From positions 62,001-126,000 of the forward strand of contig JADFXG010000007.1 in assembly GCA_015233895.1 (NCBI GenBank): a stretch of DNA of 64,000 nucleotides. The letters are read 5' to 3'. The position numbers and the translations under genes were made by a program. This stretch comes from Nitrospirota bacterium (GTDB taxonomy: Bacteria > Nitrospirota > Thermodesulfovibrionia > Thermodesulfovibrionales > Magnetobacteriaceae). The notes under the pieces are model-generated. The model searched no databases. It saw only the letters and a list, made by a program, of their open reading frames with translations, and was not told the DNA's origin. Below, piece after piece: positions 2,214 through 62,059 of the stretch (position 1 is its first letter; the number at the start of each line of letters is the position of its first letter).

Positions 2214-2237
2214 CGTGACTCCTGATTTTCATATTTA

Positions 2238-2263
2238 TTAATTAGGATAAATATCCTAATTAA
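2238..2263 (-). promoter_or_regulatory. Perfect 12-bp palindrome upstream of the cooS-like gene
   Basis: The arm TTAATTAGGATA and its exact complement are separated by two A residues. The site sits 25-50 bp before the cooS-like ATG, where an operator over the promoter would lie. The AT-rich symmetric form resembles sites of Rrf2-type or other dimeric redox regulators, but I cannot name the regulator. Confidence 0.55.
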
Positions 2264-2481
2264 ATGTAGCATTAAGCGTCAGTAGGAATCTATGATATAT
2301 AACATATAGTAATATTATTGGAATATTATTTAGAAATGGAATAACTCTTCTATCGACTATACAGTATAGCGCTTGCCTTGGCTCCACTGGTATGCCCTGA
2401 GAACAACCAGTCTGCTTCTTATAGCGCACTGTAAGTTATGTCGTTACGGTTATGCTAACACTCTCAGAACGGAAAGCGGCA

Positions 2482-2862
2482 CTATAGCGTTATCTTGAGA
2501 ACCTCTATGGCCTTGGCCACAAGTTCGTCGGGACTAAAAGGCTTTGTCATGTACATGTCGGCTCCGAACTCAAGCCCTTTCTTTCTATCCACCTCCTGTC
2601 CTTTAGCTGTCAGAAGTATGATGTAGACATCCTTCATGCCATAATCGTTCTTCACGGCTTTGCAGACGTCAAATCCGTTCATCCTGGGCATCATGACATC
2701 GAGGAATACCAGGTTCGGCGGGGATTTCCTGATCATCTCAAGGGCGGTTGCACCGTTATCTGTTACCTCGATCTCCACCCCGTAGTCTTCCAGTTTTTCG
2801 AGCGTGCGCTCGATAAGAAGCCGTACGTACGGCTCGTCGTCAACTATCAATATTTTCGGCAT
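2482..2862 (-). CDS. Single-domain response regulator (receiver)
   Basis: 126 aa, a complete CheY-like receiver and nothing else. The acidic pair D8-D9, phospho-acceptor D55, T85 and K107 are all present, so it should be phosphorylatable. It starts inside the 3' end of the HD-GYP gene (23 bp overlap) behind a GGAGG ribosome site, and is last in a four-gene operon read from 7666 downwards. It is the likely phosphate sink or output partner of the upstream hybrid kinase, perhaps acting on the HD-GYP protein; that link is inferred from the operon only. Confidence 0.9.
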   Translation of the reverse strand: MPKILIVDDEPYVRLLIERTLEKLEDYGVEIEVTDNGATALEMIRKSPPNLVFLDVMMPRMNGFDVCKAVKNDYGMKDVYIILLTAKGQEVDRKKGLEFGADMYMTKPFSPDELVAKAIEVLKITL

Positions 2863-4192
2863 TTATTCCTCCCTCATTGCCTGATGTCAAACCGTTATAA
2901 GACGCGATGAAGGCATCGACCACCGCTGGGTCGAACTGGGTGCCGGAGTGTTTTTTCAACTCGTCAAACGCCGTCTCCAGGCTTAGTCCTTTCCTGTACG
3001 GTCTGTTTGTCGTCATCGCGTCGAAGGCGTCGGCGACACTTATTATCCTGGCCTGTATGTCTATGGTCTCGCCACCGATCCCATCCGGGTAGCCCTTACC
3101 GTCGAATCTTTCGTGGTGATGCCTTACGCCGGATAGAACATCCCGAAGATGTTCTACATGCTTTAATATCTCGGTACCGTATATGTTATGTTTTTGCATT
3201 AATTTGAACTCCTCGTCGGTAAGTCTGCCCTCCTTGAGAAGCACGTTATCCCTGACACCGATCTTGCCGATATCGTGTAGTACGGCGGAGAGCTTAAGCC
3301 ACTTCATCTGATTATTGTCTAGCCCCATATGATTGCCTATGGCGAGACTGTATTCCATGACCCGTTTGGTATGATTTCCAGTATAGGGGTCTCTTTTTTC
3401 AATCGTCTCGGCAAGCGCATGTACGGTGGTAAAAAACGTCTCATGTAGTTTCTCGAAGAGTCTGGCGCTTTCCGTTGCGACGGCAACCTGAGAGGCGATG
3501 GTGTTGAGGAGTTTTACGTCTCCGGAGGTAAACGTCCGAGGCTTTGTGCTGTAGATAAATATGACGCCGTTTATCTTGTTTTTTACCTTCAGCGGGGCAT
3601 AGACGAAGGAGTGTACTATATCGTGTCCTGCAACATCGTTTACCACCTCAGCCCGGCCTGCCGAAAGGGTGTTTTCGGATATCCATGGGGCGAATATGCC
3701 TGGCAGTTGGCGGGAGTCGACGGCTCCGGTTGCGGCTACGACCTTCATCTGCAAGGTCTTGTCGTCGGCCAGCATGACGAACATTTCGGGGGCACCGAAG
3801 ATATTTAACGTTTCATCTATACAGAGCTGTGCAACCTCCCTTACGTCAAAGCACAGGGCTACCTTCTCGCCTAAGGCAAACAGGAAAGACAATTCGCGGT
3901 ATCTTTCGAGGGTTTCGTCCGTCAGGGATTTCTTTTCGATTTCCCTCTCCAGTGCATACGATATGACCTGAGCGAGGGCACTGGCTCCTGCCTGTCCGAG
4001 GACCCAGCCCGATGTCTCGCCGGAGGCCTCCACGGGGTGTTCCATGTACGGCCCCTCCGGTATTGTCCCGAGGAGCACCGTCTTGTTGGTGTCGAGGATG
4101 CAAACCGGTGACTCGATCGTTTTGGATACCGCTTCGATTACGGCCGAAAGGTTTTTATTTTTGAGAAGCCTCGAAAGCTTAACTATTGACAC
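2840..4192 (-). CDS. HD-GYP domain c-di-GMP phosphodiesterase with GAF-like sensor
   Basis: About 450 aa. A GAF-like region in the middle is followed by a full HD-GYP domain with HDIGKIGV, an HHERFDGKGYPDG segment and the DAFDAMT helix, the metal-binding signature of the family. These enzymes usually hydrolyse cyclic di-GMP. I place the start at GTG 4192, which has a GGAGG site eight bases upstream and overlaps the kinase stop by 14 bp; an ATG at 4243 would overlap the kinase by 65 bp and has no better site. No transmembrane helix is evident, so it is probably cytosolic and driven by the kinase or receiver of the same operon. Confidence 0.88.
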   Translation of the reverse strand: MSIVKLSRLLKNKNLSAVIEAVSKTIESPVCILDTNKTVLLGTIPEGPYMEHPVEASGETSGWVLGQAGASALAQVISYALEREIEKKSLTDETLERYRELSFLFALGEKVALCFDVREVAQLCIDETLNIFGAPEMFVMLADDKTLQMKVVAATGAVDSRQLPGIFAPWISENTLSAGRAEVVNDVAGHDIVHSFVYAPLKVKNKINGVIFIYSTKPRTFTSGDVKLLNTIASQVAVATESARLFEKLHETFFTTVHALAETIEKRDPYTGNHTKRVMEYSLAIGNHMGLDNNQMKWLKLSAVLHDIGKIGVRDNVLLKEGRLTDEEFKLMQKHNIYGTEILKHVEHLRDVLSGVRHHHERFDGKGYPDGIGGETIDIQARIISVADAFDAMTTNRPYRKGLSLETAFDELKKHSGTQFDPAVVDAFIASYNGLTSGNEGGINAENIDS

Positions 4193-6431
4193 CAGTTTCC
4201 CCTCCGACCAATATGCAGGTGACCGTTTCGAGCGATTTTTCAAGTTTTATGGACTTTAGCAGATCGTTCTTGTTCGAGGTCGAAATATCGATGATGATCA
4301 GGTTGGGACGCACGGACAATGCCAAGCCCAGGCACTCGCTCATGTCATGCGCCCCGATGACAGTATAACCCCTTGCCTCGAGCATCCTGGAGAGGCTTTT
4401 TATAGCAGATTCGTTTTCGTCTATGATTAGCACCTTCTTGCTGGACTTATTACGGAGCAGGAGCGACTGCACCTCCGAAAGAAGCGCTGGAACGTTTATG
4501 GGTTTTTTGAGATATCTGTCGACCCCGACCCGATATCCCTTGTTTTCGTCTTCGAGAATGGAAAGCACGATAATCGGAATATCCCCGGTTGCGGGGTTGC
4601 TTTTCAGCACGGCGGCTGCGTCTATGCCGTTCATAACGGGCATCATTATATCCAGTATTATGAGGTCCGGTCTGTTTTCTCTTGCGTCGTTTACGGCCTC
4701 GATGCCATCGGCAGCCTCGCGGACGTTATATCCCGCAGCCTCGAGCTCATATTTCAGGAGACTTCGTATGTGAGCCTGGTCGTCCACAACGAGGATATTT
4801 TTGCACCTTGCGTCGGGGGCGGCCTCCCCACGCACTTCATATTCATCGAGGTGCCTGACGAGTAATTCCATGTCCATGGTTTTTGGCTTCGGTCCGTCTG
4901 TGGGCACCGTAAAGGAAAACCTGCTTCCCTTGCCGGGGACGCTGTCCACCGATATGTACCCCCCGTGATGCTCGACTATCTGCTTGCAGATGGACAAGCC
5001 AAGCCCTGTACCCGCGGGCCTGTCCGTAAGCGTATCGCCCACCTGCTTGAATTTATCGAACACCTTGCCGCAGTCCTCCCTGGCGATGCCCAGCCCCTCG
5101 TCTTGTACTCCGACCACGATATCGTCGCCCTGCCGCTGTGCCGAGCACGTCACCGTGCCTTTATCCGAGAACTTGGCGGCGTTTGAAAGCAGGTTTATCA
5201 ACACCTGGATAAACCTGTCCCTGTCGCCGACAGCCACCGGCAGGTCGGTTTGTACGTCGCAGACAACCTCTACCCCCTTGTTTTTAAAAAGCACGGAGGT
5301 TGCGCTGACCGCCCTCGTTATTATCTCCTGGAAGTTCAGCGGCTCGGTCCTCCACTCGACCTTACCGGCCTCCATTTTAGAGATGTCAAGGACGTCGTTT
5401 ATGAGGGTAGTTAGCCTCCGGCTTTCGGTCGTGATGATATCTATGTGCTCTCTGACGCGTTTTATGGATCTCTCCGTTTTTTTGTCCGTGACCGTGATAA
5501 GCGGCAGGAGGTCCTGGTCTAACTGTTTTCTGATGATGTCGGCAAAGCCGAGGACAGATGTAAGCGGGGTACGCAGTTCATGGGATACGGTGGAAAGGAA
5601 GGATGACTTCATCTCATCAAGCGCTTTAAGCTTGACCAGGGTGTCTTCAAGCTCCGAGGTTCGTTCCCACACCTTTTTGTCAAGATCCTTTATGTTCTCC
5701 GTGAGCCTCTGCGTCATGGAACTCAGGGCTTCAGCAAGTACGCGGATCTCCTCCCCAATATTTCCAGCCCCACTGGAGATATCCATGACCTCCTTGCGAA
5801 TGTCTTCAGGGACGTATATATTGTCGGCTGCTACCTCCCTTGCGTACCTAGTGAGGATTTTCAGAGGCCGTGATATTCTCTTTGCCATGATAAGTATCGC
5901 AGCGGTGCTAAAGACGAAGATCAGGGACATGAAGACAATGCTCTTGCGAATGGCCAAAAAAACGTGTCCTTTTATGACATCTCTGCTCATTCCGATGTGT
6001 GTGTATCCGGCAACGCCGAAAAGTATCGGTGCCGACACGTCTATGATGTCGCCGTATTTTTTCATCTTCTGGTACCTTATGGCGGTTGACTCGCGGTCGC
6101 CCTTCCTGTCGCCCAGGTCTGCCGGCACGCGGGGCACAAAGGTATGGGAGAGCATGGCGCCGTTTTCGTCGGTAACATATACGTAGGCCACACCCTCTGT
6201 CGCGCTGTACTGATCAATTAAGGCCTGAACTGTCGAGGCATCCCTGTTGAGGATTATTTCCGCGGTGGAGTTTGCGATGCCCTCCGCTATAGCCTTGCCC
6301 TTGCTCACGTACTCGTCGGTCAGGTAGTCGCTGATAGTCCGAATCGAAAACAGGGACGTGGTAACGGTTATGACCGCAAAGAGCGTTATGACGGAAACGA
6401 GTGTCTTTCTAACCAGACTCGACTGTTTCAT
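4179..6431 (-). CDS. Membrane hybrid histidine kinase with two receiver domains, the second truncated
   Basis: 750 aa from ATG 6431, whose ATGA overlap with the upstream stop favours it over GTG 6440. Order: TM1 (about 8-30), periplasmic loop, TM2 (about 164-183), HAMP, coiled coil, HisKA with H284 in VSHELRTPL, HATPase_c with N417 and the GTGLGLSI lid, receiver 1 (D594, K near 642) and receiver 2 (D715). Receiver 2 ends right after beta-4, so it lacks the conserved Lys and the last helix. The upstream gene encodes a periplasmic binding protein, which may present ligand to the periplasmic loop. Output probably runs to the HD-GYP protein and free receiver downstream. Confidence 0.9.
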   Translation of the reverse strand: MKQSSLVRKTLVSVITLFAVITVTTSLFSIRTISDYLTDEYVSKGKAIAEGIANSTAEIILNRDASTVQALIDQYSATEGVAYVYVTDENGAMLSHTFVPRVPADLGDRKGDRESTAIRYQKMKKYGDIIDVSAPILFGVAGYTHIGMSRDVIKGHVFLAIRKSIVFMSLIFVFSTAAILIMAKRISRPLKILTRYAREVAADNIYVPEDIRKEVMDISSGAGNIGEEIRVLAEALSSMTQRLTENIKDLDKKVWERTSELEDTLVKLKALDEMKSSFLSTVSHELRTPLTSVLGFADIIRKQLDQDLLPLITVTDKKTERSIKRVREHIDIITTESRRLTTLINDVLDISKMEAGKVEWRTEPLNFQEIITRAVSATSVLFKNKGVEVVCDVQTDLPVAVGDRDRFIQVLINLLSNAAKFSDKGTVTCSAQRQGDDIVVGVQDEGLGIAREDCGKVFDKFKQVGDTLTDRPAGTGLGLSICKQIVEHHGGYISVDSVPGKGSRFSFTVPTDGPKPKTMDMELLVRHLDEYEVRGEAAPDARCKNILVVDDQAHIRSLLKYELEAAGYNVREAADGIEAVNDARENRPDLIILDIMMPVMNGIDAAAVLKSNPATGDIPIIVLSILEDENKGYRVGVDRYLKKPINVPALLSEVQSLLLRNKSSKKVLIIDENESAIKSLSRMLEARGYTVIGAHDMSECLGLALSVRPNLIIIDISTSNKNDLLKSIKLEKSLETVTCILVGGETGVNS

Positions 6432-7666
6432 TTGCGCCACACCTGCCAGTCTTTGATTGTGACAAAACGGTTATCTCTGACGGTGGTGTAGTATATTTTA
6501 TTCAGGCCCTGATGAACGCCCAAACCAAAGGTAACGCTCTCATCAATACCGATGTCGAGATTCCTGATTGACTCCACGGCCTTCTTTACCTGCCCTCTGT
6601 CGCCGGGGTTGTCCATCCTTTTCAGTATCTCGACAAGGAGTCGGGCGTTTAAGAACCCCTCCAGGCTTGTGAAGCTGTACTTAAGCGGTACGTAAGAGGC
6701 GTCCTGGTCCGTAACACCGGGCGACACCCGACTGTTATCCATCAGCTGCCTGTATAGCAGGACGGCGGGCAGTGAGGAGTCGTTATAGTTAGGTACGACC
6801 TGCGAGTTTATCAGATTTACCGTATAATTGCGACCGCTTTTCTCTGATATCTGTGTCAGGAGTTTCAGGAGGTTTTCGCTGCCGACAAACGAGACGTTGG
6901 CGATTGGAACGTCAAAGCCGGCATCTCTTGCGTCCCGTATAAAGGCCGCACATGCGGCGTAAGAACCTATCGAAATTATTGCGTCCGGCGACGCAGCCCT
7001 TAATATGCCGACATGCTCGTTCATTCTCTGATCAAACATTGCACCGCGGCTATAGGTCGCCTCCTCGACGATATCCAGGCCGTATCGCTCAAGTGCCCTC
7101 TTTAAGCCATCCCAGCCGCTCCTGCCGTAGGCGTCGGCTTGGTAGAAAACGGCAATGCGTTTTCTGCCTATACGCACGAAGTTGTCCACCAAGCCTTTGA
7201 GTTCCTGCTGGTACGATGCCCGGAGGTTGAAAACAAACTCGTCATAAGGCGGCTCACGATGAGGTTGTGCGCCGGTAAACGGGAAGAAAAGGTACACGTG
7301 CTCCGAGCTGTATTTCTTCAGTAGCGGCAGCACCCTCGTCACTGTCGGAGTACCAACGTAGTCTATGAGCGCAAAAACCTTATCGCCCTCGATAAACTGG
7401 ATAGTGTTTTTAATGGCCGGGGCGGGATTATATCCATCGTCATAGGCAACGATTCTTATCTTGCGGCCGTTTACGCCGCCCTTATCGTTGACGTAGTCGA
7501 AGTACGCCCTGGATCCCTTGTACAGCTCAATCCCCAGACCGCTGGACGGCCCCTTAAAGGCCGCGGACATGCCTACGACTATTTCCTCCGCGCTAAACGC
7601 CTCCATGGGAAAGAACAGAAAAAGAGCTGTACACAGAATTAAACTAATGAGGCAAAGCCGGTTCAT
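6428..7666 (-). CDS. Periplasmic ligand-binding protein, branched-chain amino-acid (LivJ) type
   Basis: About 412 aa with a Sec signal peptide ending near AFSA. The body follows the type I periplasmic fold of the LivJ/Peripla_BP_6 family, with an N-terminal VVGMSAAFKG strand and a GGVNGRKIRIVAYDDGY segment. The start is ATG 7666 (TTG 7669 also possible). No permease or ATPase of a Liv transporter is nearby; the gene is translationally coupled to a hybrid histidine kinase, so it more likely acts as the detachable sensor of that kinase than in uptake. The ligand is unknown. Confidence 0.85.
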   Translation of the reverse strand: MNRLCLISLILCTALFLFFPMEAFSAEEIVVGMSAAFKGPSSGLGIELYKGSRAYFDYVNDKGGVNGRKIRIVAYDDGYNPAPAIKNTIQFIEGDKVFALIDYVGTPTVTRVLPLLKKYSSEHVYLFFPFTGAQPHREPPYDEFVFNLRASYQQELKGLVDNFVRIGRKRIAVFYQADAYGRSGWDGLKRALERYGLDIVEEATYSRGAMFDQRMNEHVGILRAASPDAIISIGSYAACAAFIRDARDAGFDVPIANVSFVGSENLLKLLTQISEKSGRNYTVNLINSQVVPNYNDSSLPAVLLYRQLMDNSRVSPGVTDQDASYVPLKYSFTSLEGFLNARLLVEILKRMDNPGDRGQVKKAVESIRNLDIGIDESVTFGLGVHQGLNKIYYTTVRDNRFVTIKDWQVWRK

Positions 7667-7832
7667 CAATTCTCTATCCCCTTATCCAAAGATAAGCGCG
7701 TTACTCACAATGTTACATATCATGTTTGCGCATATGTTTTACAGAATACCAGATTGGGCGGCGGGGTGTCAAACAATTTCCTTTTGTCAAAAAGGGTACG
7801 TTTAACCGGAAAAGATTGGGAACGAATGAGTA

Positions 7833-25476: not shown

Positions 25477-25646
25477 TGTTTTAGTATATATTAAAGATAG
25501 TGGTGATGTTCAAGTTGTGGAATAGAATGTTGGTTATTTCCTCTGTAATGCCAGAATCCTCTCAAAAAAAAATAATTGGCATAAAACACGCAAAGTTTAT
25601 ATAATAGTGATATTGAAAGCAGTAAGAAAAGGGAATCAGACGATTT

Positions 25647-26048
25647 ATGATAAAAGGCAAGGTACTTGTACTTGATGATGAGGCTATCGTGCGTATAAGT
25701 TGTAAGAGAGTGTTAGAGGCTGAAGGATATAACGTTAGCGTAGCATCATCAGTAAAAGAGGCGGTGACGCTTCTGGAGAAGGAGCATTACGCCCTTGTGA
25801 TAACTGATTTATTGATGCCGGATGTGGACGGATTAGAGTTCCTTGAAATAATAAAACACAGATGGCCGTCTCTAAGGGCAATAGTTATGACTGGTTACGG
25901 CACTCAGGAGGCAAGACAAAAATCACTGGCGCTTGGCGCCTTAGAGTTTTTAAAGAAGCCATTTTTACCGGAGGAACTGGTAAGTGTCGTCATGGCTGCC
26001 GGTAACGCAAGGATGGAGTCGTACGATGATGACTATACACGCATTTAA
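25647..26048 (+). CDS. Single-domain response regulator
   Basis: 133 aa, complete receiver: D10-D11, phospho-site D54, T82 and K104. It starts a five-gene operon in which the next two products begin with clearly related receivers; all three share a Cys-Lys pair in the first helix (ISCK, MACK, RSCK), suggesting duplication. No kinase lies next to the operon. Confidence 0.88.
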   Translation: MIKGKVLVLDDEAIVRISCKRVLEAEGYNVSVASSVKEAVTLLEKEHYALVITDLLMPDVDGLEFLEIIKHRWPSLRAIVMTGYGTQEARQKSLALGALEFLKKPFLPEELVSVVMAAGNARMESYDDDYTRI

Positions 26049-26098
26049 TAGTAATTTAAGATATTCATATTTTTTAGATAAAAGGGAGGTTTGAAGCC

Positions 26099-26860
26099 AT
26101 GGAAAGAGGCCGTGTTCTCGTTTTAGATGACGATTTAGTAATAACAATGGCGTGTAAGAGGATTCTCGGTGCAGAGGGCTACGACGTCGTGGTTTCAAAC
26201 ACCGGTAAAGAAGCACTCAATCAGCTTGGCAAGGACGAATTCGACCTGTTTGTCTCAGATGTTCGCCTGCCCGACATAAATGGGATTACCGTGCTTAAAG
26301 AGTCTAAGATAATTCAACCAAAAACCGATGTTGTTATGATTACCGGCTATCCCACCATGCAAGATGCCCGTGAATCCATCAAGCTTGGCGCTTTTGAGTA
26401 CATAGAGAAGCCATTTACGCCGGAATTCATGGTAAACATAGCTAAGAAAATATTTGATAAAAGAGGCTGGGTACTACGGCAGTCTTTCATAAATGAGTTT
26501 AAAGAGTACGTGGTGCCGCTTAGGGGTGAAAACCCACATGTCTATTATAAAGAGGGGCTGTGGGCACGGCCTGTGGGAGATGGGCTGTGGGAGATGGGCT
26601 GTGATCTCAGAGATCAAATGGTCACAGGCGAGATGATGTATGTGGATTTTATAAAGGATTTGGATGCCGTAAAAAGCGGTGAACCATTTATCAGGCTGCT
26701 CTCAAGTTCCGGTAACACTGTGGAACTGTTGTCGCCTATGAGCGGAGAGATAAGAGAGTTCAATCTGAAAGCTAACGACGTGCTAACCTCGCTTGCAAAA
26801 GACCACTTGTCTGAGGGCTGGCTCTTGTGGCTTGTCAGAGTTATCCCTATGGAGATATAA
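26099..26860 (+). CDS. Receiver domain fused to a GcvH-like domain without lipoyl lysine
   Basis: 253 aa. Residues 1-120 are a receiver with D54, T82 and K104. Residues about 148-250 follow the glycine-cleavage H protein: a G-L-W strand, GEMMYVDFIKDLDAVKSGEPF, LLSPMSGEIREFN and the closing SEGWLLWLVRV. Where GcvH has the ESVKA loop bearing lipoyl-lysine, this protein reads SSSGN, so it cannot be lipoylated there. It may be a structural or interaction module. The ribosome site GGGAGG is strong. It lies between a free receiver and a receiver-NuoE fusion. Confidence 0.82.
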   Translation: MERGRVLVLDDDLVITMACKRILGAEGYDVVVSNTGKEALNQLGKDEFDLFVSDVRLPDINGITVLKESKIIQPKTDVVMITGYPTMQDARESIKLGAFEYIEKPFTPEFMVNIAKKIFDKRGWVLRQSFINEFKEYVVPLRGENPHVYYKEGLWARPVGDGLWEMGCDLRDQMVTGEMMYVDFIKDLDAVKSGEPFIRLLSSSGNTVELLSPMSGEIREFNLKANDVLTSLAKDHLSEGWLLWLVRVIPMEI

Positions 26861-26913
26861 TCTGCGGTAATGACATTAGTGGAAGAAGATGAAAGCATCC
26901 CGGAGGCATAATA

Positions 26914-27783
26914 ATGAAAGGTAAAATTCTGGTAGTTGACGATGACAACATAATAATAAGAAGTTGTAAAGGTGTGCTGGAACCTATGGGTTATGATGTA
27001 AGTGGTACAATTAATCCAAGGGAAGCTCTGGACTTAATCAGGGACAACAACTACGACCTCCTGATTACCGATATGATAATGCCGGGAATTGATGGCTTTG
27101 AGCTTATAAAGCGCACAAAGGAATTAAAGCCTGATACCACCGTAATAGCCATGACCGGCTATTCCATAAAGGAAACGATAAAGGACACCCTCGAATACGG
27201 TATTATGGATTATCTGCAAAAACCTTTTTCGCCTAACATCCTTGCCGACACAGTTGACAGGGTAACCAATCTGGCAAGAAAGCTGAAATCGCAGCTTGCA
27301 ATCACTGAAGAGGATGACGCAGATGGAACTCATAAGATAGAAGCTGTCAATGCCCTTATTAAACAATACAAAACAGTGCCAGGCTCTCTGATAACTGTGC
27401 TTAGTAAAACTCAAGAGATTATAGGATACCTGCCTCCGGCTATTCAGAGGTTGATCGCTAAAGGGCTGCGCATTCCCGTAAGTGAGGTACACTCGGTCGT
27501 GTCATTTTACCCGTGTTACACGATGAAAGTACGCGGACGGCACAACATACGCGTATGTATTGGGGCTGCCTGTTACGCTAAAAAAGCTGATTCAATAGTT
27601 CAAAAACTCTGCAATCAACTTCACTTTGACGAGGACAATGTCACAGATGACAAAAAATTCTCATATGAATTGGTTCGATGCCTGGGAGCTTGCGCCTCAG
27701 CCCCTGTGATAGAAGTGGATCACGATACTCACGGCACCGTGGACCCTGATAAAATAACAGACATTCTGAAAGATTACAACTAA
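26914..27783 (+). CDS. Receiver domain fused to a NuoE-like 2Fe-2S subunit
   Basis: 289 aa. Receiver (D53, T81, K103) at 1-120, a short linker, then a NuoE/HndA-like thioredoxin-fold domain (about 145-287) with the 2Fe-2S ligands C215, C220, C256 and C260 (CIGAAC and CLGAC). In Nuo or Hnd complexes NuoE passes electrons beside the flavin subunit. Here the phospho-receiver is covalently joined to an electron-transfer subunit, and the NuoF-like gene follows by 15 bp behind AGGGGGG. Both domains look functional. How phosphorylation affects electron flow is unknown. Confidence 0.87.
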   Translation: MKGKILVVDDDNIIIRSCKGVLEPMGYDVSGTINPREALDLIRDNNYDLLITDMIMPGIDGFELIKRTKELKPDTTVIAMTGYSIKETIKDTLEYGIMDYLQKPFSPNILADTVDRVTNLARKLKSQLAITEEDDADGTHKIEAVNALIKQYKTVPGSLITVLSKTQEIIGYLPPAIQRLIAKGLRIPVSEVHSVVSFYPCYTMKVRGRHNIRVCIGAACYAKKADSIVQKLCNQLHFDEDNVTDDKKFSYELVRCLGACASAPVIEVDHDTHGTVDPDKITDILKDYN

Positions 27784-27798
27784 GGGGGGTTATGATTG

Positions 27799-29670
27799 AT
27801 GCCACAGATAACGGCTGATGACCTTAAAAACATAAAAGCTGCCTATAAAGACCCACGGGAGCGTGGTGCACGTGCCTCAATAATGCTCTGCGGGGGCTCT
27901 AGTTGCAGCACCAGAGGAAGCCTCAAATTAAAGGAAATTTTTCAACAGGAATTAAAACAAAGAAACCTCGATTCTGAGGTTTCAATCTACGTAACAGGTT
28001 GTAATGGGTTTTGCACCCAATCGCCTCTTTTGACCCTGTATCCGGGCGGTATTTTCTACGAATCACTTACTCCTGAGGATATTATTCAGATTATCGAACA
28101 ACACATACTCAAAGGTGAACAATACTCTAAACGTTTGTATTCAACTGGAAAGGACTCGATAGCTGCATTATCAGACATACCGTTTTTTAAGTTTCAAACT
28201 TCACGGGTATTAAAAAACCGAGGGTTAACAGACCCCGACAATATTGACGACTATATAGGCGGAAACGGATACTTTGCCCTGCTTAAAGCTGTGACTGAAA
28301 CTGAGCCTTCTGCAATAATATCTGAGTTAAAGGCATCAGGGTTAAGAGGACGCGGCGGCGGCGGGTTTCCAACCGGACTAAAATGGGAAATTTGTAAAAA
28401 AGCCGGCAGCAGCCCAAATAACCGGAATAAGTACGTAATCTGTAACGCTGGCCCCATATCAAGAAACATCTCCGACACAGACCCCCATTCCATAGTGGAG
28501 GGAATGGCCATAGCAGCCAGAGCCACTGGTGCTTCAAAGGGTTACATTTATATAAGAGAACCTGAGCACAGATTTATAATCTCAAGGATGAATCATGCCG
28601 TTGCAAAGGCAAAAGAGTATGGCTTGCTTGGCTCTAACATTTTTGGTACCGGCTTTGACTTTGACATAGAGGTGGCAACAGGAGCAGGGACATTTATCTG
28701 CGGCGAGGAAACCGCCCTGATAAGCTCTCTTGAGGGCACAAGGGGATTTCCAAAACCTAAACCGCCCTACCCTGCAGTCAGAGGGCTATGGGGTAAACCG
28801 ACGATTGTGGACAATGCCGAGACATTTGCTAATGTTCCTCTGATTATACTAAACGGAGCTAATTGGTTCAGGTCCGTGGGTACAGAGAAATCCCCCGGCA
28901 CTAAAATTTTTACCCTGACTGGTGAGGTTATCAATAACGGCCTTATAGAGGTGCCGATGGGAACCACGCTAAGAAGTATAGTTGATGATCTTGGCGGCGG
29001 AATGAAGAGAAAACGTAAGTTAAAGACCATTCACATAGGCGGCCCAACAGGCGGCTTTATTCCTGAGTCCCTCATAGACACTCCTGCAACCTTCGAGGAC
29101 ATTGTAAAGGCCGGGGCAATCGTTGGCTCCGGCAACATAATAGTGATGGATGACAACACGTGCATGGTAAATACCGCAATGTTCTCTATGGAATTTGCTA
29201 AAGGCGAATCCTGCGGCAAGTGCTCGCCGTGCCGGATAGGAACCACGGTTATGTATGATAAGCTTGTAGATATTACTGAGGGCCGGGGCAAACCCGGTGA
29301 TATAGAGATTTTACAAGACATCGCTTTTGAGGTAAAACGTACGTCTCTGTGCGGTTTGGGACAGACATCTCCTCTTGCCGTTTTGACTACGATAAAGTAT
29401 TTCAGGGATGAGTATGAAAAGCATATAAATGAAAAGTGGTGTCCGGCAGGCCGCTGCAAAGCCCTGACAACATTTACAATAGATGAAAAAGCGTGTAAGG
29501 GCTGCACATCCTGTGCCCGTAAGTGCCCGGTTGGTGCTATAACCGGGGAAAAGAAACAACCTCACAAGATAGACCAGACCATATGTATTAGGTGCAGAAC
29601 CTGCTTTGAAACTTGCACTTTCGGCTCCATACGCATTCTGGGGCAGCAAACCGTTACCAGGGAGGCATAA
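27799..29670 (+). CDS. NuoF/HndC-like flavin iron-sulphur subunit with altered FMN/NADH loop
   Basis: 623 aa; ATG 27799 lies nine bases after AGGGGGG (TTG 27796 also fits). N-terminal thioredoxin-like 2Fe-2S domain (C31, C36, C68, C72), NuoF core with GLRGRGGGGFPTGLKW and GAGTFICGEETALISSLEG, the SCGKCSPCRIGT 4Fe-4S site, and a C-terminal two-cluster ferredoxin (CKGCTSCARKCP and CIRCRTCFETC). The usual Asn-Ala-Asp-Glu-Gly-Glu-Pro-Gly-Thr loop is replaced by NAGPISRNISD, so FMN or NADH binding may differ. Domain order is that of HndC/HydB of bifurcating complexes. The NuoG-like gene follows after 2 bp. Confidence 0.88.
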   Translation: MPQITADDLKNIKAAYKDPRERGARASIMLCGGSSCSTRGSLKLKEIFQQELKQRNLDSEVSIYVTGCNGFCTQSPLLTLYPGGIFYESLTPEDIIQIIEQHILKGEQYSKRLYSTGKDSIAALSDIPFFKFQTSRVLKNRGLTDPDNIDDYIGGNGYFALLKAVTETEPSAIISELKASGLRGRGGGGFPTGLKWEICKKAGSSPNNRNKYVICNAGPISRNISDTDPHSIVEGMAIAARATGASKGYIYIREPEHRFIISRMNHAVAKAKEYGLLGSNIFGTGFDFDIEVATGAGTFICGEETALISSLEGTRGFPKPKPPYPAVRGLWGKPTIVDNAETFANVPLIILNGANWFRSVGTEKSPGTKIFTLTGEVINNGLIEVPMGTTLRSIVDDLGGGMKRKRKLKTIHIGGPTGGFIPESLIDTPATFEDIVKAGAIVGSGNIIVMDDNTCMVNTAMFSMEFAKGESCGKCSPCRIGTTVMYDKLVDITEGRGKPGDIEILQDIAFEVKRTSLCGLGQTSPLAVLTTIKYFRDEYEKHINEKWCPAGRCKALTTFTIDEKACKGCTSCARKCPVGAITGEKKQPHKIDQTICIRCRTCFETCTFGSIRILGQQTVTREA

Positions 29671-29672
29671 CA

Positions 29673-32156
29673 ATGATAGAGTTGATCATAAATGATAAGA
29701 AAATAACGGTTGCAAACGGGAAAACCATACTCGATGCTGCACGGGAAAACGATATATATATACCGCATTTATGTTGGGACAGGAGATTAACCCCATTTGG
29801 CGGCTGCAGGATATGTGTAGTTCAGATAGAGGGACACGAGAGACTATTTACCTCCTGCTCAACCCCTGCTGAAAACGGGATGGTAGTACATACGGAGAGC
29901 CCCGATGTGCTTAAAGCCCGGCAGATGGTTATGGATCTGTTGCTTGTGCATCATCCCCTTGACTGTCCGGTGTGTGATAAAGCCGGGGTATGTAAGCTTC
30001 AGGACTTAGCCTATCAGTATGGTCCTGCGGAGAGTAAATTTCAGGGAGAAAAAAAGCAGGTGGTTGGGGATCTTGTAAATCCATTAATAGATATAAACCC
30101 TAACAGGTGCATATTATGCGGGCGTTGTGTGAGAGTTTGTTGGGAACACCAGGGGGTGGGAGCAATTAACTTTATCGGACGGGGATTCACAACAACAGTA
30201 AGTCCACCATTTGAGGAGAGTTTGAACTGCGAGTTCTGCGGCCAGTGTGTTGATGCCTGCCCTGTGGGAGCACTTGGCAGTAAGAATTTTAAACACCGCT
30301 CCAGAGCGTGGTTTTTAGAGCGCAGGGAAAACATCTGCCCATACTGTAGTGTAGGGTGTACGCTTTCTCTTGAAATTTTAGAGGGTAAAATCCTCAATGT
30401 CAGGGGGCTTGACTTCAAGGGCGTCAACGAAGGTGATCTTTGCACAAAGGGGCGCTACGGCTATGATTATATATACGGTGACAGCAGGTTAAGAACCCCG
30501 TTAATTAAAAAAGACGGGCAGTTCAAAGAAGCAACATGGGAGGAGGCAGTGGCGCTGATAGCTAAAAACATCAGATTGGTGTTGGCTGAAAGCGGTCCTG
30601 AGGCAATAGGGGCAATTGGTTCACCCCGTTGCACAAATGAAGACAACTACATGCTTCAGAAATTTATGAGAACCGTGGTAGGTTCTGACAATATAGATTC
30701 CTCGTCACGTTTTGGATATACGAAAGTACAGATGGCATTTGAGCGGACTTTTGGAATAAGCTACAACCCGGTAGATATGAATGCTCCCCTTAAAAATGAT
30801 GTCACCCTTGTTCTTGAGTCCGACATAACGTCAACACATCCTATATGGGGACTGAAATTCATAGAGGCTGTAAGAAAGGGTAAAAAGCTGATAGTGGCAG
30901 ATCCGAGAGAGACAAAGCTCTCTAACAATGCATCGACCTGGGTAAGAATAAAACCCGGAACCTCACAAGCGCTCCTCTACGGTTTAATTAAAAGGGCTTA
31001 TGATGACGGCTTCCACTTAAAAAATGAAATGACACAGGGGATAGAGGGTTTTAGTGACCTGGTAGAAACCGTAAGTTCTTTTACTGTTGAGAAAGTGTGT
31101 GAAATAACTGGCATGGAAAGAGATGATTTTCTCAAAATTTCTGATGACTACCTTGGCGCTGAAAGTCGTCTTATAGCGATGACAATTGGTGCCGGAGAGA
31201 ACTCCAAAAGTGTAAATACGGCAATTTCTGCGGCCAATTTAGTAATGTTCCTTGGCGATGGCCCGGCCTCACTGCAAATCCCTCCGCTTTTAGCAAACAC
31301 GCTTGGCATGTTGAAAATGGGCGTCTCTCCGTACTACCTACCAGGGTTTAAAAAAATAACCGGTAAACCGGGCAAAGATTTATTTAAAATGCTCTATGAA
31401 AAGGGAGCTATAAAGTTTCTTTACGTGATGGGAGAAAATCTAATTGTCACATATCCGGACACAAATAAAATAAAAGAAGCGCTTTCAAGTCTTGATTTTA
31501 TGGTAGTACAGGACATCCAGTTTTCTGAGACGGCGCAACTGGCCGATGTGGTTCTGCCTGCCTCAAGTTGGTCTGAAAAAGATGGAACATACGTGAATTT
31601 CATGGGGCTTGACCAGAAGGTCAGAAAAGTGGTGGCACAGACAGGCGAGTCTATGCCTGACTGGCAGATTCTGAGAAACCTGGCCAGATATCTGCATAAA
31701 ACAGTAGGGGCAGACAGTTTGTACGCCTATCAGGATGAGATATCGGCAATCAAGGTTGAGACTGAGACTCAGAAATGGAGATTTGTCAGTGTACCGTTTA
31801 AATTTGTAGCGGAGACTGACAACGATTATCCTCTTTATATGGTAACGGGCAATCTTATGCAGCACTCCGGAGCGCTTTCCTCGATGTCAAAGAGCCTAAG
31901 CCATGTCGTCTCGGATGCGTTTATACAGGTAAACCAGATAGATGCAATCCGGTACCATCTCAAAGATGATGCACAGGCACATGTGGATTCCAGAAACGGA
32001 CAGACAGTGGTAAAGGTGCGTATAACTGATGAGATACCTCAGGGGATGGTCTTTGCTCCCATACACTTTTCAAAGGCAATGGTTAATGCGCTCACCTTTG
32101 AGACAAACGAAGACGCCCCTCCGCTTACACCGGTAAGAGTACGCCCTGTGGGATAA
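29673..32156 (+). CDS. NuoG/formate-dehydrogenase-like iron-sulphur molybdopterin-family subunit lacking the Mo-site Cys/Sec
   Basis: 827 aa; ATG 29673 follows GGAGG. N-terminal 2Fe-2S domain (C34, C45, C48, C62), His-Cys 4Fe-4S (H94, C98, C101, C107), two ferredoxin clusters (C146-C156 and C186-C196) and a fourth cluster (C222, C225, C229, C257) before the molybdopterin oxidoreductase domain. In formate dehydrogenases the R-x-Cys/Sec-His motif binds Mo; here it reads SRFGYT with Gly348 (GGA, 30714-30716) and Tyr. The subunit is therefore more NuoG-like than a formate dehydrogenase and probably acts as an electron-transfer or non-catalytic scaffold. Last gene of the receiver operon. Confidence 0.86.
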   Translation: MIELIINDKKITVANGKTILDAARENDIYIPHLCWDRRLTPFGGCRICVVQIEGHERLFTSCSTPAENGMVVHTESPDVLKARQMVMDLLLVHHPLDCPVCDKAGVCKLQDLAYQYGPAESKFQGEKKQVVGDLVNPLIDINPNRCILCGRCVRVCWEHQGVGAINFIGRGFTTTVSPPFEESLNCEFCGQCVDACPVGALGSKNFKHRSRAWFLERRENICPYCSVGCTLSLEILEGKILNVRGLDFKGVNEGDLCTKGRYGYDYIYGDSRLRTPLIKKDGQFKEATWEEAVALIAKNIRLVLAESGPEAIGAIGSPRCTNEDNYMLQKFMRTVVGSDNIDSSSRFGYTKVQMAFERTFGISYNPVDMNAPLKNDVTLVLESDITSTHPIWGLKFIEAVRKGKKLIVADPRETKLSNNASTWVRIKPGTSQALLYGLIKRAYDDGFHLKNEMTQGIEGFSDLVETVSSFTVEKVCEITGMERDDFLKISDDYLGAESRLIAMTIGAGENSKSVNTAISAANLVMFLGDGPASLQIPPLLANTLGMLKMGVSPYYLPGFKKITGKPGKDLFKMLYEKGAIKFLYVMGENLIVTYPDTNKIKEALSSLDFMVVQDIQFSETAQLADVVLPASSWSEKDGTYVNFMGLDQKVRKVVAQTGESMPDWQILRNLARYLHKTVGADSLYAYQDEISAIKVETETQKWRFVSVPFKFVAETDNDYPLYMVTGNLMQHSGALSSMSKSLSHVVSDAFIQVNQIDAIRYHLKDDAQAHVDSRNGQTVVKVRITDEIPQGMVFAPIHFSKAMVNALTFETNEDAPPLTPVRVRPVG

Positions 32157-42015: not shown

Positions 42016-44976
42016 ATGGCTTACACTCTTGGGTTGGACTTAGGAACAAATTCGATTGGTTGGGCTTGCGTCAACACTGATTCCAAAAAAATTATTGATG
42101 CAGGCGTTCTCATCTTTCAGGAGGGTGTAAACAGAAAAAACGGTGTTGAAATATCAAAAAACACAAAACGCAGGTTAAAAAGACAGCTTAGGCGACAGTA
42201 TGGAAGAAAATGCCAGAGAAGAGACAGACTTACAGAGAAATTAAAAGAGTACCAAATGTTTCAGGATGAGAGCGCTCTTATGTTCTATGCTATGAATCCG
42301 TATGAACTTAGGGCAAAAGGGCTTGACTCTCAACTTTCTAAGTTAGAGTTTGGCAGAGTGCTGCTCCATCTAAGCAAAAGACGAGGTTTTAAAAGCAGCA
42401 GAAAGTCACAAAGTGAGGATGTTAAAAAAGACACTGCGTTTAAAGAAGATTTAAAGAGACTCCCTGAAGAAATTAAAGCAAACAACTGTAGAACCCTTGG
42501 TGAGTATCTTTATTTACTACAGGGAAAAAGTGAAAAAATTAGGTGTAAACCGACACAACGGAAATTGTACGAGGATGAGTTTGAACTCCTATGGGATAAG
42601 CAAAGCTCATACTACCCTGAGCTTACGACAGAGTTGAAAAAGGACCTTAGCCATGACATATTCTTCCAGCGTCCGTTGAAATCCGTTGCAAGCTTAATTG
42701 GTAAATGTACCCTTGAGCCAGAAAAGAAACGATGCCCGAAAAGCGCTTTTGAGTTTCAATTGTTTCGCATTTTAGAACAGGTTAACCGCCTTAGCTATAA
42801 AAACGAAAACCATGACGAAATAAAATTTTACAGGACTCCTGATGAAGAGTTTAGCCCGGAGACCAAAGACCTAAGAGATAAACTTATCGCTCTGCTTAAA
42901 TCCAAAGAGAAATGTTCTTTTAAAGACATCAAAAAGCACTTAAAATTAGATGTTGATGCTGGTTTTAATCTTGAAAAGGACGATGACGGCGCTCTTATTG
43001 GAGATAAGACCAGCCACTGTTTTAGAAAAATATTTAAAAAGAAGTGGGACACATATTCAGATGTAGAAAAAGAAAAAATTCTTCAGGTTATAAATTTTGC
43101 AGACGATAACAAGTGGCTTAGGGCTTATGCAAGCGAAAAGTGGGGTTTGGATGAGAAGGAGGTTAAAGCCGTTGCTAAAATCGCTCTTGAAGCCGGTTAC
43201 GCCAACTACTCCCTAAAAGCTATCAATAAAATTCTGCCGTTTATGCTTGATGGGTTAAATCTTCATGATGCAAAGATTAAAGCAGGTTATGAAAACTCTC
43301 GTGGAGAAAGAAGCGAAACCGAGATTATTAAAAACATACGAAACCCTATTGTCTCAAAAACTCTGTACGAATTACTTGCTCTCGTAAACCGGTTAGAAAA
43401 AGCATACGGCGTTCCAGAGCTTATAAAAATAGAAATGGCAAGAGAACTGAAAAACTCAAAAGAACAAAGAGATAAAATCAGAAAGAAAAATTTTGAAAAT
43501 AAAAGAAAAAATGATGAGGCTGCAAAAGAGCTTATTACATTAGGCATAACGCCTAACAGTGAGGCTACTGTAAAGTACAAACTATGGAAAGAATGCAAGG
43601 ATCAGTGCTGTCCTTACACTGGTAAGAAAATTCCAATAAATGCTCTGTTTTCTTCAGATTCTCTTTTTGAAATCGAACATATAATACCCTACTCACGCTC
43701 TCTGGACGACTCTTTTATGAACCTAACCCTCTGCTATGTTGATGAAAACAGGCGCAAAGGAGATAAAACGCCATATGAATGCTATAACGGATCGCCTCAG
43801 TACGACGAAATTCTACAAAGAATAAAAGTTCTGCCTAAAGCTAAACAGCGAAAATTCATATTAAAAGAAATACCTGAAGACTTTGCTTCAAGGCAACTAA
43901 ATGATACCGCCTATATGAGCAGAGAGGCGGTGTCGCTTTTAAGCAAATACAAGGTTCAACCTTCAAAAGGACAGGTTACATCGGTAATACGTCATCTTTG
44001 GGGCCTTAACACTATCTTAGGCCCATCTTCTGAGAAAAACCGTAATGACCACCGCCAACATGCCATTGATGCCATCGTAATAGCTTTGACAGAGGAAAAG
44101 ACAATTAATAAACTCTCACAGTACAGTAAATACAAAAGGCAGGCAATAAGCGAAAGATTTCCCGCACCTTGGGAATTTTTCCGTAACGATGTTGCTGAGA
44201 CAATCAACAGACTGGCCGTCTCAATCAGAGTCAATAAACGCCTGAGAGGCCAACTCCACGAAGAGACGTTTTACGGCAAGGTCACAGACAAAAAAAATGA
44301 CAAAAATATGCAGATGTTCCGTGTCAGAAAAGACGTTGTTGAGGACATGAAAATGAGCACAGTCGAGCAAATAGCTGACCCCAAAATCAGAGAAATTATC
44401 CGAAATGCTGTAATTAACGGTACAATCAAATCTGATCCTCCGACTTTACCCACAAAAGACGGCAAAAATCCAATTCCTATTAAAAAGGTAATAACCTACA
44501 TACCATCCAGCAATATGATACTGCTGCCAGGCCGTCCCGACAAAAAAACGTATGTTGCGCCAGGAGCCAACCACCACATCGTCATCTATCGCTATAAAGA
44601 CAACAAAGGCAACGTCAAACAAGGCGGTGAGGTTTGTAGCTTTTTTGAAGCCGTCAAACGCTTCAGGCGCGGTGAAAAAGTCATAAATAAAAATATTGGC
44701 GACGATAAGGAATTTTTATATTCGTTGTCTAAAAATGAAATGTTTATTCTTGACGTTGATGAAAACGAAATATCTCTTGATCCACAAAATTACAACGAAA
44801 TCTCTAAAAAACTTTACAGAGTCAAGGAAATTGATGCTGGAAGCGTACGGGTTATACTAAAACGGCACTTTGAGGCTACACGTGACGAAGACCCTGTTAG
44901 AAGAGTAGCTAATACCCTAAAAGGTATAAAAGTCATAGTTGACAGACTTGGGAGGATAACAAAAGCCTATGATTAA
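42016..44976 (+). CDS. cas9: CRISPR-associated endonuclease Cas9, type II-C
   Basis: 986 aa, compact like the C. jejuni enzyme. RuvC-I LGLDLGTNSIGW with D8, an Arg-rich bridge helix (51-72), a recognition lobe, RuvC-II with E473 (IKIEMAREL), HNH with H555 in EIEHIIPYS preceded by a CCPYTGK knuckle, RuvC-III with H682 and D685 (DHRQHAID), then the PAM-interacting region. All catalytic residues are present, so it should cut both strands. AGGAGG precedes the ATG by six bases. cas1 overlaps by 8 bp; no csn2 or cas4 is present, which defines II-C. The PAM cannot be read from sequence. Confidence 0.97.
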   Translation: MAYTLGLDLGTNSIGWACVNTDSKKIIDAGVLIFQEGVNRKNGVEISKNTKRRLKRQLRRQYGRKCQRRDRLTEKLKEYQMFQDESALMFYAMNPYELRAKGLDSQLSKLEFGRVLLHLSKRRGFKSSRKSQSEDVKKDTAFKEDLKRLPEEIKANNCRTLGEYLYLLQGKSEKIRCKPTQRKLYEDEFELLWDKQSSYYPELTTELKKDLSHDIFFQRPLKSVASLIGKCTLEPEKKRCPKSAFEFQLFRILEQVNRLSYKNENHDEIKFYRTPDEEFSPETKDLRDKLIALLKSKEKCSFKDIKKHLKLDVDAGFNLEKDDDGALIGDKTSHCFRKIFKKKWDTYSDVEKEKILQVINFADDNKWLRAYASEKWGLDEKEVKAVAKIALEAGYANYSLKAINKILPFMLDGLNLHDAKIKAGYENSRGERSETEIIKNIRNPIVSKTLYELLALVNRLEKAYGVPELIKIEMARELKNSKEQRDKIRKKNFENKRKNDEAAKELITLGITPNSEATVKYKLWKECKDQCCPYTGKKIPINALFSSDSLFEIEHIIPYSRSLDDSFMNLTLCYVDENRRKGDKTPYECYNGSPQYDEILQRIKVLPKAKQRKFILKEIPEDFASRQLNDTAYMSREAVSLLSKYKVQPSKGQVTSVIRHLWGLNTILGPSSEKNRNDHRQHAIDAIVIALTEEKTINKLSQYSKYKRQAISERFPAPWEFFRNDVAETINRLAVSIRVNKRLRGQLHEETFYGKVTDKKNDKNMQMFRVRKDVVEDMKMSTVEQIADPKIREIIRNAVINGTIKSDPPTLPTKDGKNPIPIKKVITYIPSSNMILLPGRPDKKTYVAPGANHHIVIYRYKDNKGNVKQGGEVCSFFEAVKRFRRGEKVINKNIGDDKEFLYSLSKNEMFILDVDENEISLDPQNYNEISKKLYRVKEIDAGSVRVILKRHFEATRDEDPVRRVANTLKGIKVIVDRLGRITKAYD

Positions 44977-45895
44977 ACGAACAGTCAGCATAGATAATCC
45001 GTCAAGGCTCAACATTGAGCACAAACAGCTTGTTATCACTCAAAATGACGAGGCTGTAGGCAGAGTTCCCATCGAAGACATTGGTCTTTTGATTGTGGAA
45101 AACCCAAACGTCAGCTATACGCATTCGTGTTTTGTGTCTTTGCTTGAAAACAACGCCGCTATTGTCCTCATTGGAAAAAGCCACTACCCTGCCGGACTTT
45201 TCTTGCCTCTTGAAACAAATTCCGTGCAGACTGAGCGTTTCAAATCGCAAATTGAGGCGGCAGTGTCTCTTAAAAAACAACTTTGGCAGCAAATAGTCCG
45301 AAAGAAGATAATTAATCAGGCAAAGTTACTGGAAAGTTCGGGGGCGGCTATTGCGCCTCTAACAGAGATGGCAAGAAACGTAAAATCCGGAGATTCTAAT
45401 AATCTTGAAGCACACGCCGCCCGCTATTACTGGAAAAATCTCTTTGGTAAAAAATTCAAGCGAGACCGGTTTGGTTTTTATCCAAATAATCTTCTGAATT
45501 ACGGCTATATAATTCTTAGGGCGGCAACAGCCCGCTCTTTGGTTAGTTCCGGGCTGCTTCCCACCCTGGGCATTCATCACCGCAATAAGTATAACGCATT
45601 TTGCTTAGCGGATGACGTTATGGAACCTTACCGTGTTTTTATTGACAGGAAAGTGCATGAGCTATACGCTGCCTCCGATATAAGCGAACTTGAAACTCAA
45701 GAGTTGGATGAGCTGCCGTTAGATAAAATGACTCTGACCAAAGAGATAAAAAAAGAACTGCTTGGTATATTGGCTGCTGATGTCGTGTTGGATGACAACA
45801 CTTTTCCGCTTATGACAGCCCTAAACAGAACTACGGCATCGCTTCAGCGGTGCTTTGCAAAAGAACAGAAAGATATTGAGTATCCGAGTCTGTGA
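44969..45895 (+). CDS. cas1: CRISPR integrase Cas1
   Basis: 308 aa, normal for type II Cas1. The N-terminal beta domain is followed by the helical catalytic domain with Glu in EAHAARYYWKNLFG, His in GIHHRNKYNAF and an acidic residue in ADDVMEPYRVF, the metal-binding set. With Cas2 it inserts new spacers. It overlaps cas9 by 8 bp and precedes cas2 by 12 bp. Confidence 0.96.
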   Translation: MIKRTVSIDNPSRLNIEHKQLVITQNDEAVGRVPIEDIGLLIVENPNVSYTHSCFVSLLENNAAIVLIGKSHYPAGLFLPLETNSVQTERFKSQIEAAVSLKKQLWQQIVRKKIINQAKLLESSGAAIAPLTEMARNVKSGDSNNLEAHAARYYWKNLFGKKFKRDRFGFYPNNLLNYGYIILRAATARSLVSSGLLPTLGIHHRNKYNAFCLADDVMEPYRVFIDRKVHELYAASDISELETQELDELPLDKMTLTKEIKKELLGILAADVVLDDNTFPLMTALNRTTASLQRCFAKEQKDIEYPSL

Positions 45896-45901
45896 TTTTG
45901 A

Positions 45902-46240
<339 letters not shown>

Positions 46241-61822: not shown

Positions 61823-62059
61823 ATGTGTTTAGCAGTGCCGTCAAAAATAGTAAGCATAAATAACCACCTGTCGGTAGTGGACGTTATGGGAGTGCGGCGG
61901 GAGATAAGTCTGCTTCTGATGCCTGAGGAGGTCTCCGTAGGGGATTATGTGTTAATTCATGCGGGGTTTGCTATACAAAGAGTTGATGAAACAGCCGCTA
62001 TGGAAACTCTCAGGTTTTTTAAAGAAGCCGGAGCACTTTCAGCCCTTACGCAGGGATAA
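61823..62059 (+). CDS. hypC: Hydrogenase maturation protein HypC
   Basis: 78 aa. The essential N-terminal Met-Cys (MCLAVPSKI) and the GDYVLIHAGFAIQ segment define HypC, which with HypD carries the Fe(CN)2CO unit to [NiFe] hydrogenase. TAA overlaps the hypA ATG (TAATG). Confidence 0.96.
   Translation: MCLAVPSKIVSINNHLSVVDVMGVRREISLLLMPEEVSVGDYVLIHAGFAIQRVDETAAMETLRFFKEAGALSALTQG

Follow-up and report, generated by a model that had tools for sequence, protein, structure and literature searches.

An operon at positions 25647–32156 of a 64,000-nucleotide stretch of a Nitrospirota genome (assembly GCA_015233895.1, contig JADFXG010000007.1, positions 62,001–126,000, forward strand; the whole stretch is called the window below) encodes a redox core whose assignment to the Bfu (HydABC-type) electron-bifurcating family is well supported at the sequence level, with the HndC-like protein corresponding to BfuB, the receiver-NuoE fusion to BfuC and the NuoG/Fdh-like protein to BfuA. 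This core family is already known, while the N-terminal receiver domain on BfuC and its accompanying receiver-GcvH-like protein are new. A kinase-controlled BfuABC complex of the Bfu lineage, in which phosphorylation gates a mobile domain of BfuC, has in our judgement an even chance of being the correct explanation. The free receiver of the operon is designated RR1, the receiver-GcvH-like protein RGcvH and the receiver-BfuC/NuoE fusion RNuoE. An earlier note on the window knew of no well-described complex of this make-up, which holds for the receiver on BfuC and the RGcvH partner but not for the core, whose Bfu/HydABC type is recognizable.

Operon Structure and Identity of the Redox Core

The five genes lie on the same strand with intergenic gaps of 50, 53, 15 and 2 bases, and the Pfam analysis agreed with the domain content that the earlier note had given for this operon (Table 1). 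For the last two genes the listed TTG start was shifted to the ATG behind it. The ratio of nonsynonymous to synonymous substitution rates (dN/dS) ranged from 0.025 to 0.152 across the five genes in comparison with two loci from within the genus (L055 and L056), with dS values of 0.60 to 1.32 being partly saturated. Because dN/dS was far below 1, the operon in its present form, including a BfuB without one of its loops (see below), is maintained by purifying selection, and decay to pseudogenes was ruled out, though with the above saturation of dS.

Table 1. Genes and promoter-like element of the receiver-Bfu operon (positions in the window)
Feature	Position	Strand	Evidence
Sigma-54-like -24/-12 element TGGCATAAAACACGC, 70 bases before RR1	25577..25591	+	chance level
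Free receiver RR1, 133 amino acids (aa)	25647..26048	+	Pfam Response_reg 98.5 bits
Receiver-GcvH-like protein (RGcvH), 253 aa	26099..26860	+	Pfam Response_reg 85.9 bits, GCV_H 26.0 bits
Receiver fused to BfuC/HydC/NuoE (RNuoE; 2Fe-2S thioredoxin-like, cluster C1), 289 aa	26914..27783	+	Pfam Response_reg 95.8 bits, 2Fe-2S_thioredx 142.6 bits
BfuB/HydB/HndC-like flavo-iron-sulfur subunit, 623 aa	27799..29670	+	Pfam Complex1_51K + NADH_4Fe-4S + Fer4
BfuA: NuoG-type N-terminus + Fdh-type pterin domain	29673..32156	+	Pfam Fer2_4 + NADH-G + Molybdopterin + Molydop_binding

The best PDB matches of the window BfuB were HydB chains of bifurcating hydrogenases (7q4v_B with 687 bits and 7t2r_B with 670 bits), the NuoE half of the third protein had its top matches in HydC of bifurcating hydrogenases, and the fifth protein combined NuoG-type clusters with an Fdh-type domain, as BfuA. 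The window BfuB contained the 51K flavin mononucleotide (FMN) domain, SLBB (26.7 bits, just below the cut-off of 27), the 4Fe-4S region and the C-terminal ferredoxin domain of the family; the Pfam names of this set correspond to the InterPro numbers used in the Bfu paper. In the residue alignment the ligands of the N-terminal 2Fe-2S cluster were present, as were the 4Fe-4S region, both C-terminal clusters and the unusual cluster B2 with its His/Cys set; Schut et al. (2022; PMC9304861) characterize the Bfu family by these features. In 64/64 BfuB of at least 560 aa the ligands were kept for B1, for B2 (His and Cys) and for B3/B4 (eight Cys), together with two Cys of B5, the other two being present in 54–55 of the 64; the C1 Cys were kept in all 30 BfuC.

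The subunits A, B and C, the cluster ligands of BfuB and BfuC and the gene order C-B-A are therefore those of the Bfu (BfuABC/HydABC) family as described in the same paper (PMC9304861), from which the present operon differs by the receiver on BfuC, the RGcvH companion and, in the clade of the window, the absence of the loop that binds FMN and nicotinamide adenine dinucleotide (FMN/NAD loop). The terms "response regulator," "receiver," "kinase" and "glycine cleavage" are absent from the main text of PMC9304861. Complex I has homologous NuoEFG subunits, whose genes adjoin the receiver operon in some relatives, but its NuoE is unfused, and the NuoF of the sampled genomes (412–442 aa) had none of the extra ferredoxin-type domains of BfuB.

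Distribution and Gene Neighborhood

The fused subunit was surveyed in 295 genomes of the same phylum, with the best 8 or 9 candidates per genome scored and weak matches dropped. The receiver-NuoE profile matched at E <= 1e-60 in 86 of these genomes among the matches listed, and full-length receiver-BfuC, i.e., a match row from 1–4 to 286–287 of the profile, was present in at least 75, all of one class; chance fusion and assembly error were ruled out by this recurrence in 75 genomes. Only the NuoE part matched in two genomes of the same class (G258 and G045, the latter at a contig end) and in nine that belong to a different class. At E <= 1e-12 the tail of RGcvH was matched in 62/295 genomes, all from the class of the window. 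Two other phyla gave no match covering the receiver among those listed: that of Desulfatitalea (297 genomes, 71 matching at E <= 1e-55; two of the matches sit in ORFs, open reading frames, of 982 and 998 aa) and that of Acetatifactor (249 genomes, 77 matching). A scan of contigs with the receiver-NuoE query gave 14 loci, nearly all with a plain receiver or a plain NuoE.

The neighborhood counts are based on stretches picked for RGcvH (53), for receiver-NuoE (18), from the own genome (3) and for context (2); those of kinases, regulators and accessory genes are limited to stretches of up to 20 kb, several of which end at contig ends. BfuB came next after the fused receiver-NuoE in 62/64 loci and BfuA after BfuB in 61/64, with a 127-aa protein similar to HydD, a small ferredoxin shared with the Bfu family, encoded in between in 40 of the 64 but absent from the operon in the window. 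With this order kept in 61 of the 64 loci, a chance arrangement was ruled out. The exceptions were one locus at a contig end (L126) and two fusions that stand alone, without BfuB/BfuA (L184:9633-11188 and L187:9523-11176); behind each of these two lies an ORF that by eye resembles a UbiE-type methyltransferase. RGcvH was located upstream of receiver-NuoE in 46/64 loci, a fraction biased upward because most stretches were picked for holding RGcvH, and a free receiver or an NtrC-type regulator was upstream in 31/64. Four accessory genes (PHP, DRTGG, RsbW-like and HATPase) were all found in the stretch for 20/64 loci. A comparable PHP/kinase/anti-sigma-type set accompanies the [FeFe]-hydrogenase operon Halsa_1862-1871 of Halanaerobium hydrogeniformans in a passage of PMC4237134, which mentions no receivers; the operon in the window has no such set.

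Receiver Domains and the GcvH-Like Partner

All three receivers of the operon had the acidic pair, Asp, Thr and Lys, as the earlier note had stated. The phospho-acceptor residues (acidic pair, Asp, Thr/Ser, Lys) were intact in 59/64 receiver-NuoE, in 54/54 RGcvH rows (53/53 distinct genes, since the gene of G019 entered twice, as L082 and L193) and in 17/17 free receivers, namely RR1 and 16 matching receivers of relatives; the count omits an eighteenth row, which is an unrelated receiver encoded at window position 2482. Loss of the phospho-site in homologs, which the earlier note had named as evidence against its proposal, was thus limited to 5 of the 64 receiver-NuoE. In one of these (L192) the phospho-Asp is replaced by Glu, a natural phospho-mimic. 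Helix alpha-1 is the part of a receiver that usually touches the kinase. It carried the residues SC in 50/64 RNuoE and 50/54 RGcvH rows, and free receivers as well as NtrC proteins from the fetched loci looked alike in this helix; the receivers share an alpha-1 pattern. The SC pattern was found in none of the five readable receivers (seven tried, a small sample) from elsewhere in the genome of the window.

The match of RGcvH to GCV_H was weak in the individual sequence (26.0 bits at a cut-off of 22.2), but the assignment held with a profile of 14 RGcvH relatives, for which 14 of 15 PDB matches were H proteins (best E 2.3e-7). The best 50 rows of a fold search with the RGcvH model were dominated by receivers and have no bearing on the GcvH part. 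In alignment with H proteins, the column of the lipoyl-Lys was occupied by Gly in 52 and by Arg in 2 of the 54 RGcvH rows. A Lys one column further on was present in 14 of them, which makes a shifted lipoyl-Lys possible there; the window protein has none.

Loss of the Formate Site in BfuA and of the FMN/NAD Loop in BfuB

Residue roles and numbers for the pterin domain were taken from E. coli FdhH. Where formate dehydrogenase has selenocysteine (Sec) or Cys followed by His, the window BfuA has Gly-Tyr; among the 57 BfuA of receiver complexes the first position was always Gly and the second either Tyr (52) or Phe (5), while the equivalent of the formate-binding Arg333 was Arg in none. The four Cys of the cluster adjoining the pterin site were kept in 57/57. 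A formate dehydrogenase (FdhA/FdhF) was ruled out on these grounds, and the "Fdh-like" label of the earlier note is not to be taken as a formate enzyme. The positive control was a Bfu-type Sec enzyme from the own genome (L119), which likewise has a BfuA combining NuoG-like clusters with an Fdh-type domain but differs by an in-frame TGA between CARF and HSPT (Cys-Ala-Arg-Phe-Sec-His), an intact FMN/NAD loop and a 151-aa NuoE without a fusion partner. This formate dehydrogenase (G000:C1:379000-398000) sits behind receiver- and kinase-like ORFs. In a quick tree, where L120 and L018 were on long branches, the 57 receiver-complex BfuA formed one clade (support 100) and 10 complex-I NuoG another (99), which rules out a complex-I NuoG identity; the nearest branch to the former was the BfuA of L119 (support 92, under the 95 mark).

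In place of NGDEGDPGAFMDRS in the BfuB of relatives, that of the window has NAGP and, after a gap of six residues, ISRN. The loop missing here was kept in 58/66 BfuB and in 10/10 NuoF, while the eight BfuB without it (the window and seven relatives) formed one clade (support 100) entirely within the family of the window. Three genomes of this family (G004, G005 and G011) hold both a loop-less BfuB and a loop-bearing copy that belongs to a separate clade. The region corresponds to loop 195–204 with Glu197 and the AFM motif, which the rest of the class has. In the passages of PMC8880783 on NiFe-HydABCSL, Glu197 binds FMN, AFM is one of three motifs marking bifurcating enzymes, and loop movement is considered to play a possible part in passing electrons between the flavin and C1; in those of PMC6560083 on NuoF of A. 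aeolicus, E95 and E97 reach the nucleotide via water. Since the window BfuB lacks this loop, the NADH-linked activity considered in the earlier note cannot be assumed for it. The window copy probably represents a derived variant, for which bifurcation to NAD by the known route is unlikely.

Linkage to Histidine Kinases

A histidine kinase was encoded upstream on the same strand in 22/64 receiver-NuoE loci, i.e., in a third of them, and in 15 of the 64 a free receiver or NtrC followed directly behind it. The kinase credited to L184 is five genes off, 36% identical and without CxxCH. A CxxCH, possibly a c-haem motif, was present in the first 260 residues of 20/22 kinases of 440–560 aa from the fetched loci, which are a slightly different 22 from those of the neighborhood count. 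The genome of the window has one full-length relative of the linked kinase, located on another contig, 37% identical and with CNECH.

Proposed Mechanism and Alternative Explanations

Control by phosphorylation is the natural reading, because the receivers are conserved, have an alpha-1 pattern in common and in some relatives are preceded by a histidine kinase together with either a free receiver or one of the NtrC type. In NiFe-HydABCSL the C-terminal iron-sulfur domain of HydC is mobile and may gate the low-potential branch, according to PMC8880783; it is to BfuC, the counterpart of HydC, that the receiver is fused. We infer kinase action on the receivers, physical assembly of the products, the gating step and the substrates as follows. 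A membrane sensor kinase, with CxxCH in most relatives that have a linked kinase, would phosphorylate the free receiver and, where present, the NtrC-type regulator, and the same kinase would act on the receivers of the GcvH-like partner and of the BfuC N-terminus. Phosphorylation of the BfuC receiver would most likely either alter the swing of the iron-sulfur domain of BfuC between the flavin and the ferredoxin branch or enable RGcvH to dock on this domain and lock it; such a change of movement, direct or by way of RGcvH, is the simplest model. Electron flow would be set by either kind of control. The loop-less version in the family of the window would probably not bifurcate to NAD in the known way, with electrons still passing via the iron-sulfur clusters.

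Several observations weigh against this mechanism. Broken receivers occur in the receiver-NuoE of L181, L182, L183, L185 and L192, which makes the switch dispensable in some lineages, and a linked RGcvH was missing in 18/64 RNuoE loci. Conversely, RGcvH occurred without RNuoE in four loci (L080, L081, L085 and L090), directly behind the complex-I nuoG and with no Bfu genes, and is therefore not specific to the Bfu complex. The AlphaFold2 models had predicted template modeling scores (pTM) of 0.46 and 0.51, too low for a reliable domain placement. The kinase which the earlier note had suggested looking for in syntenic loci was met in relatives, but none was found beside the operon in the window, and within the fetched stretches none was found upstream in 42/64 loci. 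No bifurcation can be claimed for the window copy because of the missing FMN/NAD loop. Finally, the receivers could act outside the complex, on the sigma-54 regulator alone.

A reversed flow of information is possible, although we place low confidence in it: the Bfu core would read the ferredoxin pool and alter receiver phosphorylation, either by exposing or hiding the receivers or through an effect on the kinase. The message would then reach sigma-54 promoters via the free receiver and the NtrC-type regulator, with catalysis being secondary or lost. The lack of a formate site in 57/57 BfuA and the loss of the FMN/NAD loop in the clade of the window under purifying selection are consistent with such a redox reporter, as are the NtrC-type regulators in several receiver-complex loci. 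So is the frequency of sigma-54-like elements within 300 bases upstream of RGcvH (23/54 rows, one gene twice, vs. 1.1% in pair-shuffled sequence; the controls, mostly coding DNA, gave 0/66 for BfuB-type, 0/76 for NuoG-type and 5/64 for receiver-NuoE upstreams). These sites may, however, merely drive expression of the operon itself, and the match in the window is at chance level (24/100 shuffles have as many matches); in L055 and L056 neither RR1 nor RGcvH was found to be preceded by such a site. Furthermore, the loop in 58/66 BfuB and the clusters are kept as for an enzyme, and receivers seldom act as senders. For the family of the window in particular, selection might maintain a Bfu complex devoid of formate site and FMN/NAD loop in the role of an iron-sulfur hub, with phosphate passing between its receivers and a sensor kinase, a proposal that we regard as rather doubtful.

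It is unlikely that the operon encodes a phosphorylation-gated input module docking on complex I in place of NuoEFG (Nuo-Bfu). This type is assigned to Nitrospirae, among others, by Schut et al. (2022; PMC9304861). The genes nuoABCD were in the same stretch in 13/64 loci, oriented divergently in 11 and codirectionally in 2, and in L195, from a different class of the phylum, nuoA-D are followed codirectionally by the genes of an unfused BfuC, HydD, BfuB and BfuA. Against this stand the quick tree, where the BfuA of L195 grouped with a NuoG and the receiver-complex clade of 57 rows was outside NuoG, and the nuoE and nuoF adjoining several receiver-complex copies and present also in the genome of the window (L121).

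A pterin enzyme with a new substrate, whose Fdh-type domain still binds bis-molybdopterin guanine dinucleotide (bis-MGD), with no protein residue ligating the metal, and which the receivers regulate, seems distinctly unlikely. Arsenite oxidase offers a precedent for Mo without a protein ligand. The invariant Gly and the aromatic residue (57/57 each) at the Sec-His positions, the conserved Cys of the adjacent cluster and the Molydop_binding domain kept in the window would fit such an enzyme, as would an FdhD-type gene in seven fetched loci (L069, L072, L075, L076, L087, L182 and L183), although FdhD may serve another enzyme; the Arg333 equivalent is lost throughout, and a similar degenerate motif is present in the complex-I NuoG of the same genomes. 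That the receivers are silent, aiding only assembly or dimerization and taking no phosphate, is highly improbable: the five broken sites would agree with it, but 59/64 RNuoE and 54/54 RGcvH rows are intact across a class, and the broken ones are confined to loci without a linked RGcvH (0/5 linked vs. 46/59; Fisher p 0.001, rows non-independent), though two of the five genomes (G008 and G252) have RGcvH elsewhere.

Other Features of the Window and of Relatives

Several further features were noticed by eye. At 339–7669 on the minus strand, an ORF similar to carbon monoxide dehydrogenase, with a Cys-rich N-terminus, adjoins a receiver, two sensor-type ORFs and an ORF resembling a periplasmic binding protein, perhaps forming a substrate-sensing set. 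From 42016–46240 onward there is a Cas9-like ORF (986 aa, with a RuvC-type start), then Cas1- and Cas2-sized ORFs, and the ORFs behind these repeat SITYQCLKATHN, which looks like a translated array of clustered regularly interspaced short palindromic repeats (CRISPR). The end of the window (61823–64000) contains hypC-, hypA-, hypB- and hypF-like ORFs for hydrogenase maturation. In a UBA9089 genome (L017:1-2748) a single ORF combines an iron hydrogenase-like part with PAS, a histidine kinase and two receivers, resembling a sensory hydrogenase.

Biological Implications

Among the matches listed from the open-licence literature of PubMed Central (PMC), no description was found of a receiver on HydC/NuoE or of two-component phosphorylation controlling bifurcating enzymes; the passages of PMC4374699 on HydABC and on response regulators concern matters other than the receiver-BfuC arrangement. 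The loop-less paralog beside a loop-bearing copy in G004, G005 and G011 is a natural experiment on the role of FMN/NAD binding. If the family of the window does contain an iron-sulfur hub as outlined above, it would join the ferredoxin state and two-component signaling in one particle. For the kinase-controlled BfuABC complex, the receiver sits on the subunit whose movement may gate the low-potential branch, so that phospho-mimics offer a direct test of the gating hypothesis, and a sensor kinase may here be in direct control of electron flow through the receiver-bearing complex.

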